A stretch of 33,150 bases of DNA from Oscillospiraceae bacterium (lineage in GTDB: Bacteria > Bacillota > Clostridia > Oscillospirales > Acutalibacteraceae): the NCBI GenBank assembly GCA_902772935.1, contig CACYCR010000189.1, positions 1-33,150 on the forward strand, given 5' to 3'. The position numbers and the translations under genes were made by a program. Shown piece after piece: positions 29,971 to 33,150 of the stretch. The notes under the pieces are model-generated. The model was not told the DNA's origin and made no database searches. It saw nothing but the letters and a program-made list of their open reading frames with translations. Position 1 is the stretch's first letter, and each line of letters starts with the position of its first letter.

Positions 29971-31311
29971 ATGCCGAAAAATACACTGCAAAAAAAGCGA
30001 TCCGGATTCTCCATGTGGCTGTTGGTCTGGGGTCTCGGCCTTGCCGGACAGATCTGCTGGAACATGGAAAACCAATGGTTCAACACGTTTGTTTACGCAA
30101 AGATCGGCAAGGATCCGTCCATCATCACGGGCATGCTGATCTGCTCCGCCGCCGCAACCACGTTTTCCACCTTCTTTTTCGGTACGTGGGCGGACCGCAC
30201 CGGAAAACGACGCACCTTCATTTCCTGGGGCTACATCCTGTGGGGTATTTTCACGATTGCATTCGGTCTGACACAGTTCATCAGCAAAGAGTTGTATCTG
30301 CTGCTGGCAGTCAGCGTTGTCCTTGCGGATACCGTGATGAGCTTCTTCGGCTCCATGGGTAACGACGCCGGCTACAACACCTGGATGAATGACATCATGA
30401 CCGACAAGAACCGCGGGCAGATCGGCGCGGCACTGGCAACACAGCCGGTGCTCGGTACCATCATCGGCACCGTAGTCGGCGGCCTGCTGGTCGGTGAGAA
30501 TGACAACTATATGCTGCTGTTCGTTGTGATGGGCGTGTTCGTGATTCTGTTCGGTCTGCTTTCCATGCTGACACTGAATAAGAACGACGACGTCACACCG
30601 AACAAAGACGGCGGCTTCTGGCACCAGTTTTTCAGTGTCTTCAATTTCAAACGCTTTTTCAAGCTGAAAGAGCTTGTGCTGGTCCATGTGGCAATCGCCG
30701 TGTTCTTCATCGGCTTCAACGTGTATTTTGCCTATATCGGCAACTATCTGATTTACTATCTCGGCTATTCCGCCGATATGATGGGCATCATTGAGGCGGT
30801 GCCGCTGGTGCTTGCCATGCTGACGGCCATTCCGATCGGTATTCTGATCAACAAGAACAAGCATCCGTACATTTCGATCGCGGCTGTCCTCATCAACATC
30901 ATCGGCCTGCTGATCCTCTTCCCGATCAAGGCGGCGGATGTTGATCCCACGGCAATCTTCAATCTGCGCATCTGGCTCGGCATTTTTGTTGTCGGCGTCG
31001 GTTATGTCGGCATTCTGCAAACGACAAAGGTTTGGGCAAAGCAGCTCTATCCCGCCAATGCCAAAGGCCAGTTCGAGGGCATTTGGATTTTGTTCTTCGT
31101 ACTGATTCCGATGATCGGCGGTTCCCTCATCGGTCAGGCCGTTGTCAAAACGAGCGGAGAGACCTTCCTGGAGGAGGCGAGTGGACAGATGCAATATGTG
31201 CCGAACGGCAACATTTTCATCGTCGGTGCGGCAGTGGTTCTGCTGTCGCTCATTCCGATCATTCTGACGATCAAACATCACAAAGCACGCAGCAAAACAG
31301 TTGACAAGTAA
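29971..31311 (+). CDS. Major facilitator superfamily transporter
   Basis: The 446-residue protein has about 12 predicted membrane helices and the MFS motif-A-like loop GTWADRTGKRR after helix 2 (about 72-82). A charged central loop lies around 200-220. The opening (MWLLVWGLGLAGQICWNMEN) and the NDAGYNTWMNDIM segment are of a Clostridia-rich MFS/GPH-like group whose substrates are mostly sugars or sugar derivatives; the real substrate is unknown. It is preceded by its own promoter and by GAGGGAG at about 7 bases. No sugar enzyme genes are beside it. The -35 hexamer of the next gene lies inside its last codons. Confidence 0.9.
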   Translation: MPKNTLQKKRSGFSMWLLVWGLGLAGQICWNMENQWFNTFVYAKIGKDPSIITGMLICSAAATTFSTFFFGTWADRTGKRRTFISWGYILWGIFTIAFGLTQFISKELYLLLAVSVVLADTVMSFFGSMGNDAGYNTWMNDIMTDKNRGQIGAALATQPVLGTIIGTVVGGLLVGENDNYMLLFVVMGVFVILFGLLSMLTLNKNDDVTPNKDGGFWHQFFSVFNFKRFFKLKELVLVHVAIAVFFIGFNVYFAYIGNYLIYYLGYSADMMGIIEAVPLVLAMLTAIPIGILINKNKHPYISIAAVLINIIGLLILFPIKAADVDPTAIFNLRIWLGIFVVGVGYVGILQTTKVWAKQLYPANAKGQFEGIWILFFVLIPMIGGSLIGQAVVKTSGETFLEEASGQMQYVPNGNIFIVGAAVVLLSLIPIILTIKHHKARSKTVDK

Positions 31312-31329
31312 GCTGCGCGGGTATATAAT
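31301..31329 (+). promoter_or_regulatory. Promoter of the 43-residue peptide gene
   Basis: TTGACA (31301-31306), 17 bases, then TATAAT (31324-31329), both exact consensus. The -35 hexamer overlaps the last codons of the MFS transporter gene. Confidence 0.85.
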
Positions 31330-31360: not shown

Positions 31361-31492
31361 ATGGAAGAAGAAAAAACCATGAAAGAAAACATGAAGGAAA
31401 TGAGTTTGCTTGATTTTTGGAAGGATATCACACATCTGCTTGAAAAAATCGCGAACTTCTTTAAATCCCTGTTCAACAAAGCGGAAGATTAA
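31361..31492 (+). CDS. Short 43-residue peptide with amphipathic C-terminal helix
   Basis: I do not recognise a family. The peptide has a charged N-terminal part (MEEEKTMKENMKEM, 1-14). A segment SLLDFWKDITHLLEKIANFF (15-34) follows that would make an amphipathic helix with a strong hydrophobic face. Net charge is about -3. A perfect promoter, an ACGGAGGTG ribosome site and a downstream hairpin plus terminator argue strongly that it is expressed. It could be a membrane-active peptide, a small regulatory partner or a two-component bacteriocin element; sequence does not decide. No processing enzymes or exporter lie beside it. Confidence 0.7.
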   Translation: MEEEKTMKENMKEMSLLDFWKDITHLLEKIANFFKSLFNKAED

Positions 31493-31497
31493 GGAAC

Positions 31498-31524
31498 CAC
31501 TGATCTTCGGGCCATAGATCAGTG
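31498..31524 (+). promoter_or_regulatory. Hairpin after the 43-residue peptide gene
   Basis: A perfect 9-bp stem CACTGATCT / AGATCAGTG with a 9-base loop begins 5 bases past the stop. It has no T tail; it may protect the 3' end or take part in regulation of the next peptide. Confidence 0.55.
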
Positions 31525-31540
31525 TGATCTGAAGTGCAAG

Positions 31541-31570
31541 GAGTCGTTGCGGGGCAGCGGCTCTTTTGTT
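31541..31570 (+). terminator. Terminator or attenuator between the two short-peptide genes
   Basis: A 10-bp stem GAGTCGTTGC (31541-31550) / GCAGCGGCTC (31554-31563), with two G-U pairs and a 3-base loop, is followed by TTTTGTTT. It lies only 20 bases before the start codon of the next peptide, which has no visible promoter of its own, so read-through or attenuation is implied. Confidence 0.75.
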
Positions 31571-31589
31571 TCTGTGAGGAGGTGTTGTT

Positions 31590-31685
31590 ATGTCCAGAAC
31601 GACGTATCGTTATCTGCGCGATCTGATCCGGAATACCTACCGCGCCAATCGTTCGATTCTGCGTCTGCTGTTCTTCTGGTTGTAA
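31590..31685 (+). CDS. Short 31-residue Arg-rich cationic peptide
   Basis: This 31-codon frame is preceded by a strong GAGGAGG about 7 bases before the ATG. The peptide (opening MSRTTYRYLRDLIRNTYR, ending ILRLLFFWL) has seven Arg and one Asp, net about +6. It has a regular spacing of Arg and a hydrophobic aromatic end. The core LIRNTYRANRSIL parallels LVRQNYRFGRTHL of the leader peptide 100 bases downstream. It may be a regulatory leader, a cationic membrane-active peptide, or the partner of the 43-residue peptide. No homology is known to me; expression depends on passage of the terminator-like hairpin upstream. Confidence 0.5.
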   Translation: MSRTTYRYLRDLIRNTYRANRSILRLLFFWL

Positions 31686-31709
31686 GCGATATTTTATTTG
31701 ACTAAAGGG

Positions 31710-31738
31710 TTGACTTTTCTTTGCGGCGGGTGTATAAT
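31710..31738 (+). promoter_or_regulatory. Promoter of the ECF transporter operon
   Basis: TTGACT (31710-31715), 17 bases, then TATAAT (31733-31738). Transcription starts near 31745, giving a leader of about 140 bases. Confidence 0.85.
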
Positions 31739-31751
31739 CCAATAAACCTAT

Positions 31752-31879
31752 CGAACAAGTAGGCAGAAAAGGAGGAGATGTCCCTTGCAAAGAATCTTTG
31801 TTCTTCTTGTTCGTCAGAACTATCGTTTCGGACGAACACACCTGATTTCCTGAAACATCATTTTTCGGAAAGGAAATCA
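31752..31879 (+). promoter_or_regulatory. Leader with competing hairpins and sequestered ribosome site (putative attenuator)
   Basis: Four exact pairings or partners are seen. CGAACAAG (31752-31759) can pair with CTTGTTCG (31806-31813). The same segment, as TGTTCGTC (31808-31815), can instead pair with GACGAACA (31831-31838). TGATTTCCT (31843-31851) pairs with AGGAAATCA (31871-31879), which buries the ribosome site of the ECF S gene. A 22-codon ORF runs through these elements and its stop codon lies in the 5' arm of the last stem. The first two stems are mutually exclusive. No known riboswitch consensus is visible. Confidence 0.6.
31785..31853 (+). CDS. 22-residue leader peptide (TTG start)
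   Basis: A strong AAAGGAGGAG lies 9 bases before a TTG that opens a 22-codon frame (start MQRIFVLLVRQNYRFGR, end THLIS). An ATG overlapping the ribosome site in another frame is too close to be used. The peptide has a hydrophobic start and three further Arg (four in all). A ribosome pausing in its middle would cover 31808-31838, and one reaching the stop would sit on the 5' arm of the stem that hides the next ribosome site. That geometry resembles erm-type translational attenuators. Confidence 0.5.
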   Translation: MQRIFVLLVRQNYRFGRTHLIS

Positions 31880-31886
31880 AGAACTC

Positions 31887-32417
31887 ATGAAAAATCAAAA
31901 TCTGACCCGGTTGTCGTTTGCCGGCTTATTTGCGGCATTGACGGCAATCTTTATCTATCTCATTCACATTCCGTATGGGCAGACCGGCTACATCCACCTC
32001 GGTGACGCGGTGATCTTTCTGTGTGCCGTTCTGCTGCCGGAACCGTACGCTGCGGCTGCGGCTGCGGTCGGTGGGGGACTGGCAGATCTCATCAGCGGTT
32101 TCCCGATCTATATCTTGCCGACCGTACTCATCAAAGCATGCATGGCATTGCTGCTCTCATCCAAGACACCGAAGCTGCTTTGTAAGCGCAACGTTATCGG
32201 TGTCCTTCTTGCCGCGGCGCTGAATCTGCTGCTGTATGCAGTTACGGAATTCGTTCTCGGCGTTACGGCGTACGGCATGCCGGCGGCGGGCGCACTCGCG
32301 ACGGCGGTGTCCACGCTGTTGCAGAACGGGATTCAGGGCGCAGCGAATGTTGTTGTATTTCTGCCGCTTGCGGCAGCGTCGGACCGTTTTCATATCAAAT
32401 CAAAATTTCATCTGTAA
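31887..32417 (+). CDS. ECF transporter S component (PF07155-like)
   Basis: The 176-residue integral membrane protein has about six helices and the S-component signature IHLGDAVIFLCAVLLPEPYA followed by VGGGLADLISGFPIY (about 34-75). S components capture a vitamin or similar micronutrient and dock on the shared EcfAAT module, which is not in this window. The substrate cannot be read from sequence; PF07155 members include riboflavin-type and uncharacterised ones. It starts at the ATG 7-8 bases after an AAGGAAA ribosome site that lies in a stem. The TIGR01440 gene follows 19 bases downstream in the same operon. Confidence 0.88.
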   Translation: MKNQNLTRLSFAGLFAALTAIFIYLIHIPYGQTGYIHLGDAVIFLCAVLLPEPYAAAAAAVGGGLADLISGFPIYILPTVLIKACMALLLSSKTPKLLCKRNVIGVLLAAALNLLLYAVTEFVLGVTAYGMPAAGALATAVSTLLQNGIQGAANVVVFLPLAAASDRFHIKSKFHL

Positions 32418-32436: not shown

Positions 32437-32973
32437 ATGACGGAAATTACCAACGCGGCAGCAGCCGCAACAAAAGAACTGATCGAAGCAGCGGGGCTGC
32501 AGGCAGGACAATTGCTTGTGGTCGGCTGTTCGTCCAGTGAAATTGTCGGCGGAAAAATCGGACATGATTCTTCCCTCGAAGCGGCCGCAGCCGCCTTTGC
32601 CGGCATTTATCCCGTACTCAAAGACCGGGGGATCGACCTCGCCGCACAGTGCTGCGAGCATCTCAACCGCGCGCTGATCATGGAACGCGCAGCGGCAGAG
32701 CGCCGCGGATACGAAATCGTCAGCGTCGTTCCGCAGCCCAAAGCCGGCGGCTCATTCGCCACGACGGCATGGAACCGATTCAGCGATCCCGTTGCTGTGG
32801 AGTACATCAAAGCGGATGCCGGACTGGACATCGGTCTGACGCTCATCGGAATGCACCTCAAGCACGTTGCCGTGCCGCTCCGCCTTTCGGTGGACCACAT
32901 CGGTGAGGCACGCATCACGGCCGCCCGTACCCGCCCGAAGTACATCGGCGGTGAACGTGCGCACTACGAATAA
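32437..32973 (+). CDS. TIGR01440/YwlG family protein
   Basis: The 178-residue protein matches the YwlG/DUF436 family of unknown function. Characteristic segments are QLLVVGCSSSEIVGGKIGHDSS (about 22-43), AAQCCEHLNRALIMERAAAE (about 70-90), VPQPKAGGSFATTAW, and the ending GEARITAARTRPKYIGGERA. The Cys residues and GCSSSE loop look like a conserved active or binding site. Length equals the family norm of about 180. The ATG follows CGGAGG at about 10 bases. Its place behind an ECF S component suggests a link to the same nutrient, but in other Firmicutes the gene is found in different contexts. A terminator follows. Confidence 0.93.
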   Translation: MTEITNAAAAATKELIEAAGLQAGQLLVVGCSSSEIVGGKIGHDSSLEAAAAAFAGIYPVLKDRGIDLAAQCCEHLNRALIMERAAAERRGYEIVSVVPQPKAGGSFATTAWNRFSDPVAVEYIKADAGLDIGLTLIGMHLKHVAVPLRLSVDHIGEARITAARTRPKYIGGERAHYE

Positions 32974-33074: not shown

Positions 33075-33150
33075 GGAGAGTTGTCCGAGTGGTCGAAGGT
33101 GCAGCACTCGAAATGCTGTGTACGAAAGTACCTAGGGTTCGAATCCCTAA
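33075..33150 (+). tRNA. tRNA-Ser (anticodon CGA), partial at window end
   Basis: GGAGAGTTGTCCGAGTGG starts the acceptor and D arms. The anticodon loop CTCGAAA gives anticodon CGA (reads UCG). A long variable arm GTGTACGAAAGTACC, typical of tRNA-Ser, precedes the T arm TAGGGTTCGAATCCCTA. The 3' acceptor strand is cut off by the window end. Confidence 0.95.

Follow-up and report, generated by a model that had tools for sequence, protein, structure and literature searches.

The locus examined here raises the question of how a gene whose ribosome site is buried in a perfect hairpin comes to be translated, and whether a 22-codon open reading frame (ORF) ending in that same hairpin takes part in the process. 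The window that we analyzed spans a complete contig (G000:C189; 33,150 bases) from a Clostridia-type genome, which is 84% complete in 190 contigs; a 5S rRNA gene on the minus strand and a tRNA gene are truncated at its ends (1-80 and 33075-33150). Near one end lies an operon consisting of a promoter, a leader of ~140 nt, the gene for the S component of an ECF transporter (the S gene) and a DUF436 gene. A sequence-only reading of this stretch had described the leader as an attenuator of the erm type—a description that was confirmed as an observation and partly supported as an interpretation. The reading that we favour, as a plausible but unconserved arrangement with a little less than an even chance of being right, is that of a leader peculiar to the species, whose short ORF and the S gene would be coupled in translation. 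The features on which the argument rests are the following:

31590..31685, + strand: sORF1, a conserved Arg-rich ORF of 31 aa located 5' of the S-gene promoter, outside the leader
31710..31738, + strand: sigma-70 promoter of the S-gene leader, TTGACT-17-TATAAT, 11/12 matches
31747..31763, + strand: 5' hairpin, CCTAT-N7-GTAGG; CCTA..TAGG also begins the leader of the relative G020, with another loop
31752..31759, + strand: arm A, which could pair with 31806-31813 (exact 8 bp) and lies within the 5' hairpin loop
31769..31775, + strand: strong ribosome site of the 22-codon ORF (-11.6 kcal/mol)
31785..31853, + strand: 22-codon leader ORF MQRIFVLLVRQNYRFGRTHLIS, TTG start, TGA stop, in the S-gene frame
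31806..31815, + strand: arm B, from the helix search and the equilibrium fold
31831..31838, + strand: arm C, forming a hairpin with 31808-31815 (probability ~1 at 31809-31815, 0.62 at 31808)
31843..31851, + strand: 5' arm of the stem hiding the S-gene Shine-Dalgarno (SD) site; covers the last codons of the leader ORF and the first base of its stop
31871..31879, + strand: 3' arm of the SD-hiding stem; includes the weak S-gene SD (AGGA)
31887..32417, + strand: ECF transporter S component, TIGR04002 / PF07155, probable vitamin B6 transporter
32437..32973, + strand: DUF436 / TIGR01440 (YwlG family)

The identity of the S gene sets the context for any control exerted by its leader. Its product scored 132.1 bits against TIGR04002 (cut-off, 120) and 84.8 bits against PF07155 (cut-off, 26.7)—the family to which PMC9997740 assigns PdxU and PdxU2/HmpT—and pdxU has been placed in PdxR regulons (PMC5320631). 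The gene probably encodes a vitamin B6 transporter, because TIGR04002 relatives adjoin PdxR or pyridoxamine kinase genes: in L003 and L004 the S gene adjoins a gene passing the PdxR cut-off, in L006 a gene of GntR plus aminotransferase build, with a PdxR match that likewise passes, lies beside it, and in L077, L080, L087 and L099 the neighbour is a pyridoxamine kinase. Such neighbours were present at 7 of the 9 relatives' loci tested, which were chosen since their upstream sequence hinted at them, and not in the window itself. With vitamin B6 as the likely cargo, the transported nutrient gains as one of the inducing signals suggested for the leader. FMN riboswitches (RF00050) precede distant relatives of the S gene in Fermentithermobacillaceae (L173, L175, L176 and L178), suggesting that PF07155 relatives differ in substrate.

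DUF436 is linked to vitamin B6 by its position beside divergent PdxR genes, with no S gene between in G007:C46, G027:C10 and G030:C76, and together with the S gene in G009, G021, G026 and G025; in the last of these, a methyltransferase gene separates the two. YwlG, the DUF436 member of Bacillus subtilis, influences EF-P modification (PMC5885033), and a YwlG-type protein was pulled out by a pyridoxal probe in Staphylococcus aureus, according to PMC6522883. Across 34 genomes of the genus, PdxR was matched in 29 (26 above the cut-off) and pyridoxamine kinase in 25, including G000 and G020; at E 1e-30, PdxR had no match in G000, G018, G020, G022 and G029. The absence from G000 is provisional because of the incompleteness of that genome, while the G020 genome is 97% complete. 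In comparison with the PdxR-controlled pdxU and pdxK operons (PMC5320631), the window operon shares an S gene of the PF07155 type that in relatives stands beside PdxR or the kinase, but G000 and G020 are without a PdxR match, and the operon in the window is headed by a sigma-70 promoter and a leader instead.

The leader region from 31745 to 31900 contains three exact Watson-Crick helices of at least 8 bp (31752-31759/31806-31813, 31808-31815/31831-31838 and 31843-31851/31871-31879), and the stop codon of the leader ORF (TGA, 31851-31853) falls within the 5' arm of the third through its first base. Both the 22-codon ORF with its strong ribosome site and the perfect 9-bp stem that hides the S-gene SD, with the leader stop inside, were borne out where they had been placed. 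The computed anti-SD binding energy was -11.6 kcal/mol for the leader ORF site and -5.6 kcal/mol for the S-gene site. Stop and S-gene start are separated by 33 nt in the same frame. Read-through of the stop to give an N-terminally extended S protein was considered, as the ORF shares the S frame with one TGA between, and was set aside because aligned S proteins start at about the same place and TGA also ends the sORF of a relative.

Both the SD-hiding stem and the 31808-31815/31831-31838 hairpin had a probability of ~1.0 in the equilibrium fold, and the S-gene SD was unpaired at 0.00-0.18 per base in the free RNA. The two competing 8-bp stems proposed earlier do exist as sequence helices, but the pairing of 31752-31759 with 31806-31813 never exceeded 0.02 in this fold. 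We then modeled a ribosome as a 31-nt footprint masked codon by codon, with 15 nt assumed on either side. With the P-site at codons 1-15 the S-gene SD stayed closed (mean unpaired, 0.04-0.06), and from codon 16 to the stop it opened (0.43-0.74), solely by the covering of one arm. The competing stems (31752-31759, 31806-31815 and 31831-31838) have zero bases in common with the hiding stem (31843-31851/31871-31879), and the model gives them no connection to the SD, which opens only when the ribosome has come to the end of the leader ORF—the behaviour of coupling rather than of an erm-type switch. Transcription attenuation was rejected as well, as a search for terminator-like sites between 31745 and the S start returned none.

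The ribosome terminating on a short upstream ORF can open a downstream ribosome site, an effect termed translational coupling. The S-gene leader resembles known cases in its strong upstream SD, its weak and hidden gene SD and the location of the stop in the hiding stem, and differs from them in being known from the sequence of a single species and in its stop-to-start distance of 33 nt. On the favoured reading, ribosomes would load at the strong leader SD and translate the 22-codon ORF; a ribosome on the last seven codons or the stop would hold the SD-hiding stem open, and a new or a re-initiating ribosome could then start on the in-frame S gene 33 nt further on. If the leader ORF were not read to its end, the S gene would remain closed; in its ordinary version, such coupling would require no signal. 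PdxR control of the operon seems to be gone in G000 and G020, so that the amount of the vitamin B6 transporter may now depend on the leader. Should the coupling hold, this would be a case of a vitamin transporter leaving the control of the PdxR transcription factor for that of a short ORF in its own mRNA. The points in favour are the contrast between the two SD energies, the rarity of the elements in shuffled sequences, the opening of the SD at codons 16 to stop, the scarcity of the geometry among upstream regions (3 of 335, detailed below) and the unmatched PdxR in G000 and G020; against it stand the absence of a homologous leader, the layout in G020, the ordinary folding energy, the frequency of hidden SDs and the post hoc nature of the tests.

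The strongest competitor, itself quite possible though behind the coupling in probability, is that ORF and helices are incidental features of a young, unconserved 5' leader and that the S gene uses its own weak site. All chance tests bearing on this alternative were fixed only after the site had been seen, and the site was picked by its reader from 33 kb, which favours an incidental origin; the shuffles preserved dinucleotides. At least three Watson-Crick helices of 8 bp occurred in 5 of 500 shuffled leaders, a mutually exclusive helix pair in 10/500 and a 9-bp Watson-Crick helix touching the S-gene SD in 9/500, and an ORF of 10-45 codons with an SD as strong as that of the leader ORF was found in 1/300 (39/300 at -5 kcal/mol). 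This coincidence of several elements, each rare in shuffles, argues against chance. When G-U pairs were allowed, an equally long helix at the S-gene SD appeared in 119/500 shuffles and the SD was hidden as well in 26/300; the SD-hiding stem therefore looks ordinary under this null and not under the Watson-Crick one. The folding energy of the leader is also ordinary (z -0.96, with 30/200 shuffles folding as well). When 21 further ORFs of the window, taken from a mechanical list, were measured in the same way, six had an SD accessibility below that of the S gene (0.24 in this context), and a hidden SD is not special by itself. Further, we compared 335 upstream regions—the window plus fetched loci, a sample biased to S-gene and DUF436 loci—where three helices occurred in 12, a helix in the SD zone in 30 and an SD-led short ORF in 13. 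A short ORF ending in an SD-hiding helix was present in only three (the S-gene leader, L176 and L178), a geometry that speaks against a merely incidental origin; L176 and L178 were dropped as parallel cases because both lie behind FMN riboswitches. On the whole, the leader arrangement moderately exceeds chance.

Conservation weighs on the side of the incidental reading. At E 0.001, a relative of the S gene was present in 31 of 59 related genomes, and at 1e-25 in 30 of 300 family genomes; a search of contigs with a three-row alignment yielded 45 S-gene loci, and a contig search with the S protein alone returned no relatives. The 101 loci taken on gave 97 readable leaders (one was without a match, three were too short), two of which are second copies of the same contigs, with a third pair identical over the compared stretch. 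An SD-led short ORF of any kind occurred in nine of these leaders, two of the nine being the same locus, and no ORF in the 97 resembled the 22-mer beyond chance: the best match, sORF2 of G020, had a score of 22 that was equalled by 518 of 2000 shuffles. The alignment of orthologous leaders that had been put forward as a check thus turned out largely unfavourable to the erm-type proposal. Searched against the 33 other genomes of the genus, the leader DNA matched through its promoter stretch alone, in G002 and G025. Only G020 (65% identity) has a like promoter, at -79 to the S start, and the CCTA..TAGG hairpin. In that genome, the 5' hairpin is followed straight away by the SD and ATG of the S gene, and no conserved aptamer-like sequence was seen in the leader. 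The test on relatives is thin because no other relative has the same promoter type, and the leader itself is seen in one genome only. The nearest named relative found was a Clostridia MAG from goat omasum (L142, which repeats L002, the G020 locus).

The study of the leader also pointed to a conserved, unnamed gene for an Arg-rich peptide of 27-32 aa before DUF436, which we consider a better lead than the 22-codon ORF. This gene, sORF1, encodes MSRTTYRYLRDLIRNTYRANRSILRLLFFWL behind a very strong SD (-13.5 kcal/mol) and has homologues in 8/34 genus genomes, its own included (E up to 6e-4). In all eight it lies 5' of DUF436—six times directly, and before the S gene in G000 and G020—and a scan of 53 DUF436 loci recovered it in eight (E up to 4e-15), with the next frame at 0.28. 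Codon comparisons indicate that sORF1 is under selection at the peptide level: pS was 0.47-0.80 and pN 0.04-0.24 among the six closer members; with G028 and G019 added, pN reached up to 0.36 and pS dropped to 0.30 between these two. Terminator-like sites separate sORF1 from DUF436 in the two genomes scanned for them (G001 and G028), and shuffles give such sites too. A tRNA-Ser gene is located 5' of sORF1 in G012, G016, G001 and G013, so that PdxR is not a neighbour there, and in the six sORF1 carriers that have PdxR its match is on other contigs. Weak matches to sORF1 were dropped—five within the genus (E 0.38-0.91) and five in the family (E 0.001-0.009), the latter with neither DUF436 nor an S gene in the locus. 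Among the listed papers on YwlG, DUF436 and UPF0340, sORF1 is unmentioned in titles and abstract openings. DUF436 has no assigned biochemical role and is tied here to vitamin B6 by its neighbours; together with the Arg-rich peptide, it becomes testable. G020 contains, beside sORF1, a second Arg-rich ORF of 30 aa (sORF2, 196 to 103 nt before the S start in L002), which ends 5' of the S-gene promoter and whose likeness to the sORF1 family was reached by 0/2000 shuffles in summed score and by 70/4990 in HMM score.

The 22-codon ORF could accordingly be regarded as a short third copy of this Arg-rich family, an origin that we deem unlikely. An ungapped fit to the sORF1 family reached a summed score equalled by 7/2000 shuffles and a best score equalled by 33/2000, and the HMM score was attained by 36 of 4537 scored shuffles. 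Against this, a matrix built without the 22-mer ranked it 11th of 66,300 window positions (14.7, versus 66.9 for sORF1), it came 16th (E 1.5) when 1,223 frames located 5' of DUF436 were compared, and its match to sORF2 is at chance level, as the 518 shuffles above indicate. A regular-expression motif that, over six frames, hit only sORF1 and the 22-mer was given no weight, having been composed once both peptides were known.

In erm systems, a stalled ribosome frees one arm of a stem, and alternative pairing releases the downstream SD. That a drug or nutrient stalls ribosomes in the leader ORF here, rearranging the stems to free the S-gene SD, is very improbable, even with three perfect helices of which two are mutually exclusive and with an IFVL stretch in the 22-mer that resembles the IFVI of ErmCL. 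The hiding stem is separate from the competing stems, and a stall at codons 1-15, IFVL included, leaves the SD closed in the model, so that only codons 16-22 could work; the arginine codons suggested as a signal found no support in this ORF. With erm and tlrB (yxjB) attenuation as described in PMC6851288, the S-gene leader shares a leader ORF with an SD followed by an SD-hiding hairpin, but its upstream stems are unlinked to that hairpin, and it lacks the macrolide arrest motif R/K-X-R/K, a downstream resistance gene and a conserved peptide.

No more probable is an undescribed riboswitch or protein-binding leader with the strong SD-hiding stem as its output and the ORF as an incidental feature: RF00050 does precede the distant S relatives, and like the S-gene leader some of these leaders (L176 and L178) end in SD-hiding stems, but the S-gene leader has no aptamer, Rfam gave zero leader matches over the whole window and, permissively, in 31490-31960 (E up to 5)—in line with the earlier claim that this is not a known vitamin riboswitch—G020 shows nothing aptamer-like that is conserved, only ~95 nt separate the expected RNA start from the stem, and the folding energy is ordinary.

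Returning to the coupling of ORF and S gene, a far-reaching extension of it would be that, after the loss of PdxR, the S-DUF436 operon came under short nascent peptides, with the sORF1 family and the 22-codon leader gauging ribosome performance (e.g., the state of EF-P) and adjusting the amounts of transporter and DUF436 through the opening or closure of downstream ribosome sites; we regard this as a long shot. Upstream of sORF1, the window also contains an amphipathic-looking ORF of 43 aa (31361-31492) behind a perfect sigma-70 promoter (31301-31329, 12/12), and a terminator-like hairpin with a T-rich tail (31538-31566) lies between this ORF and sORF1. For the 43-aa ORF, 29 of the 34 genus genomes gave a match with E no higher than 1, about ten of them at E up to 3.2e-5, self included.
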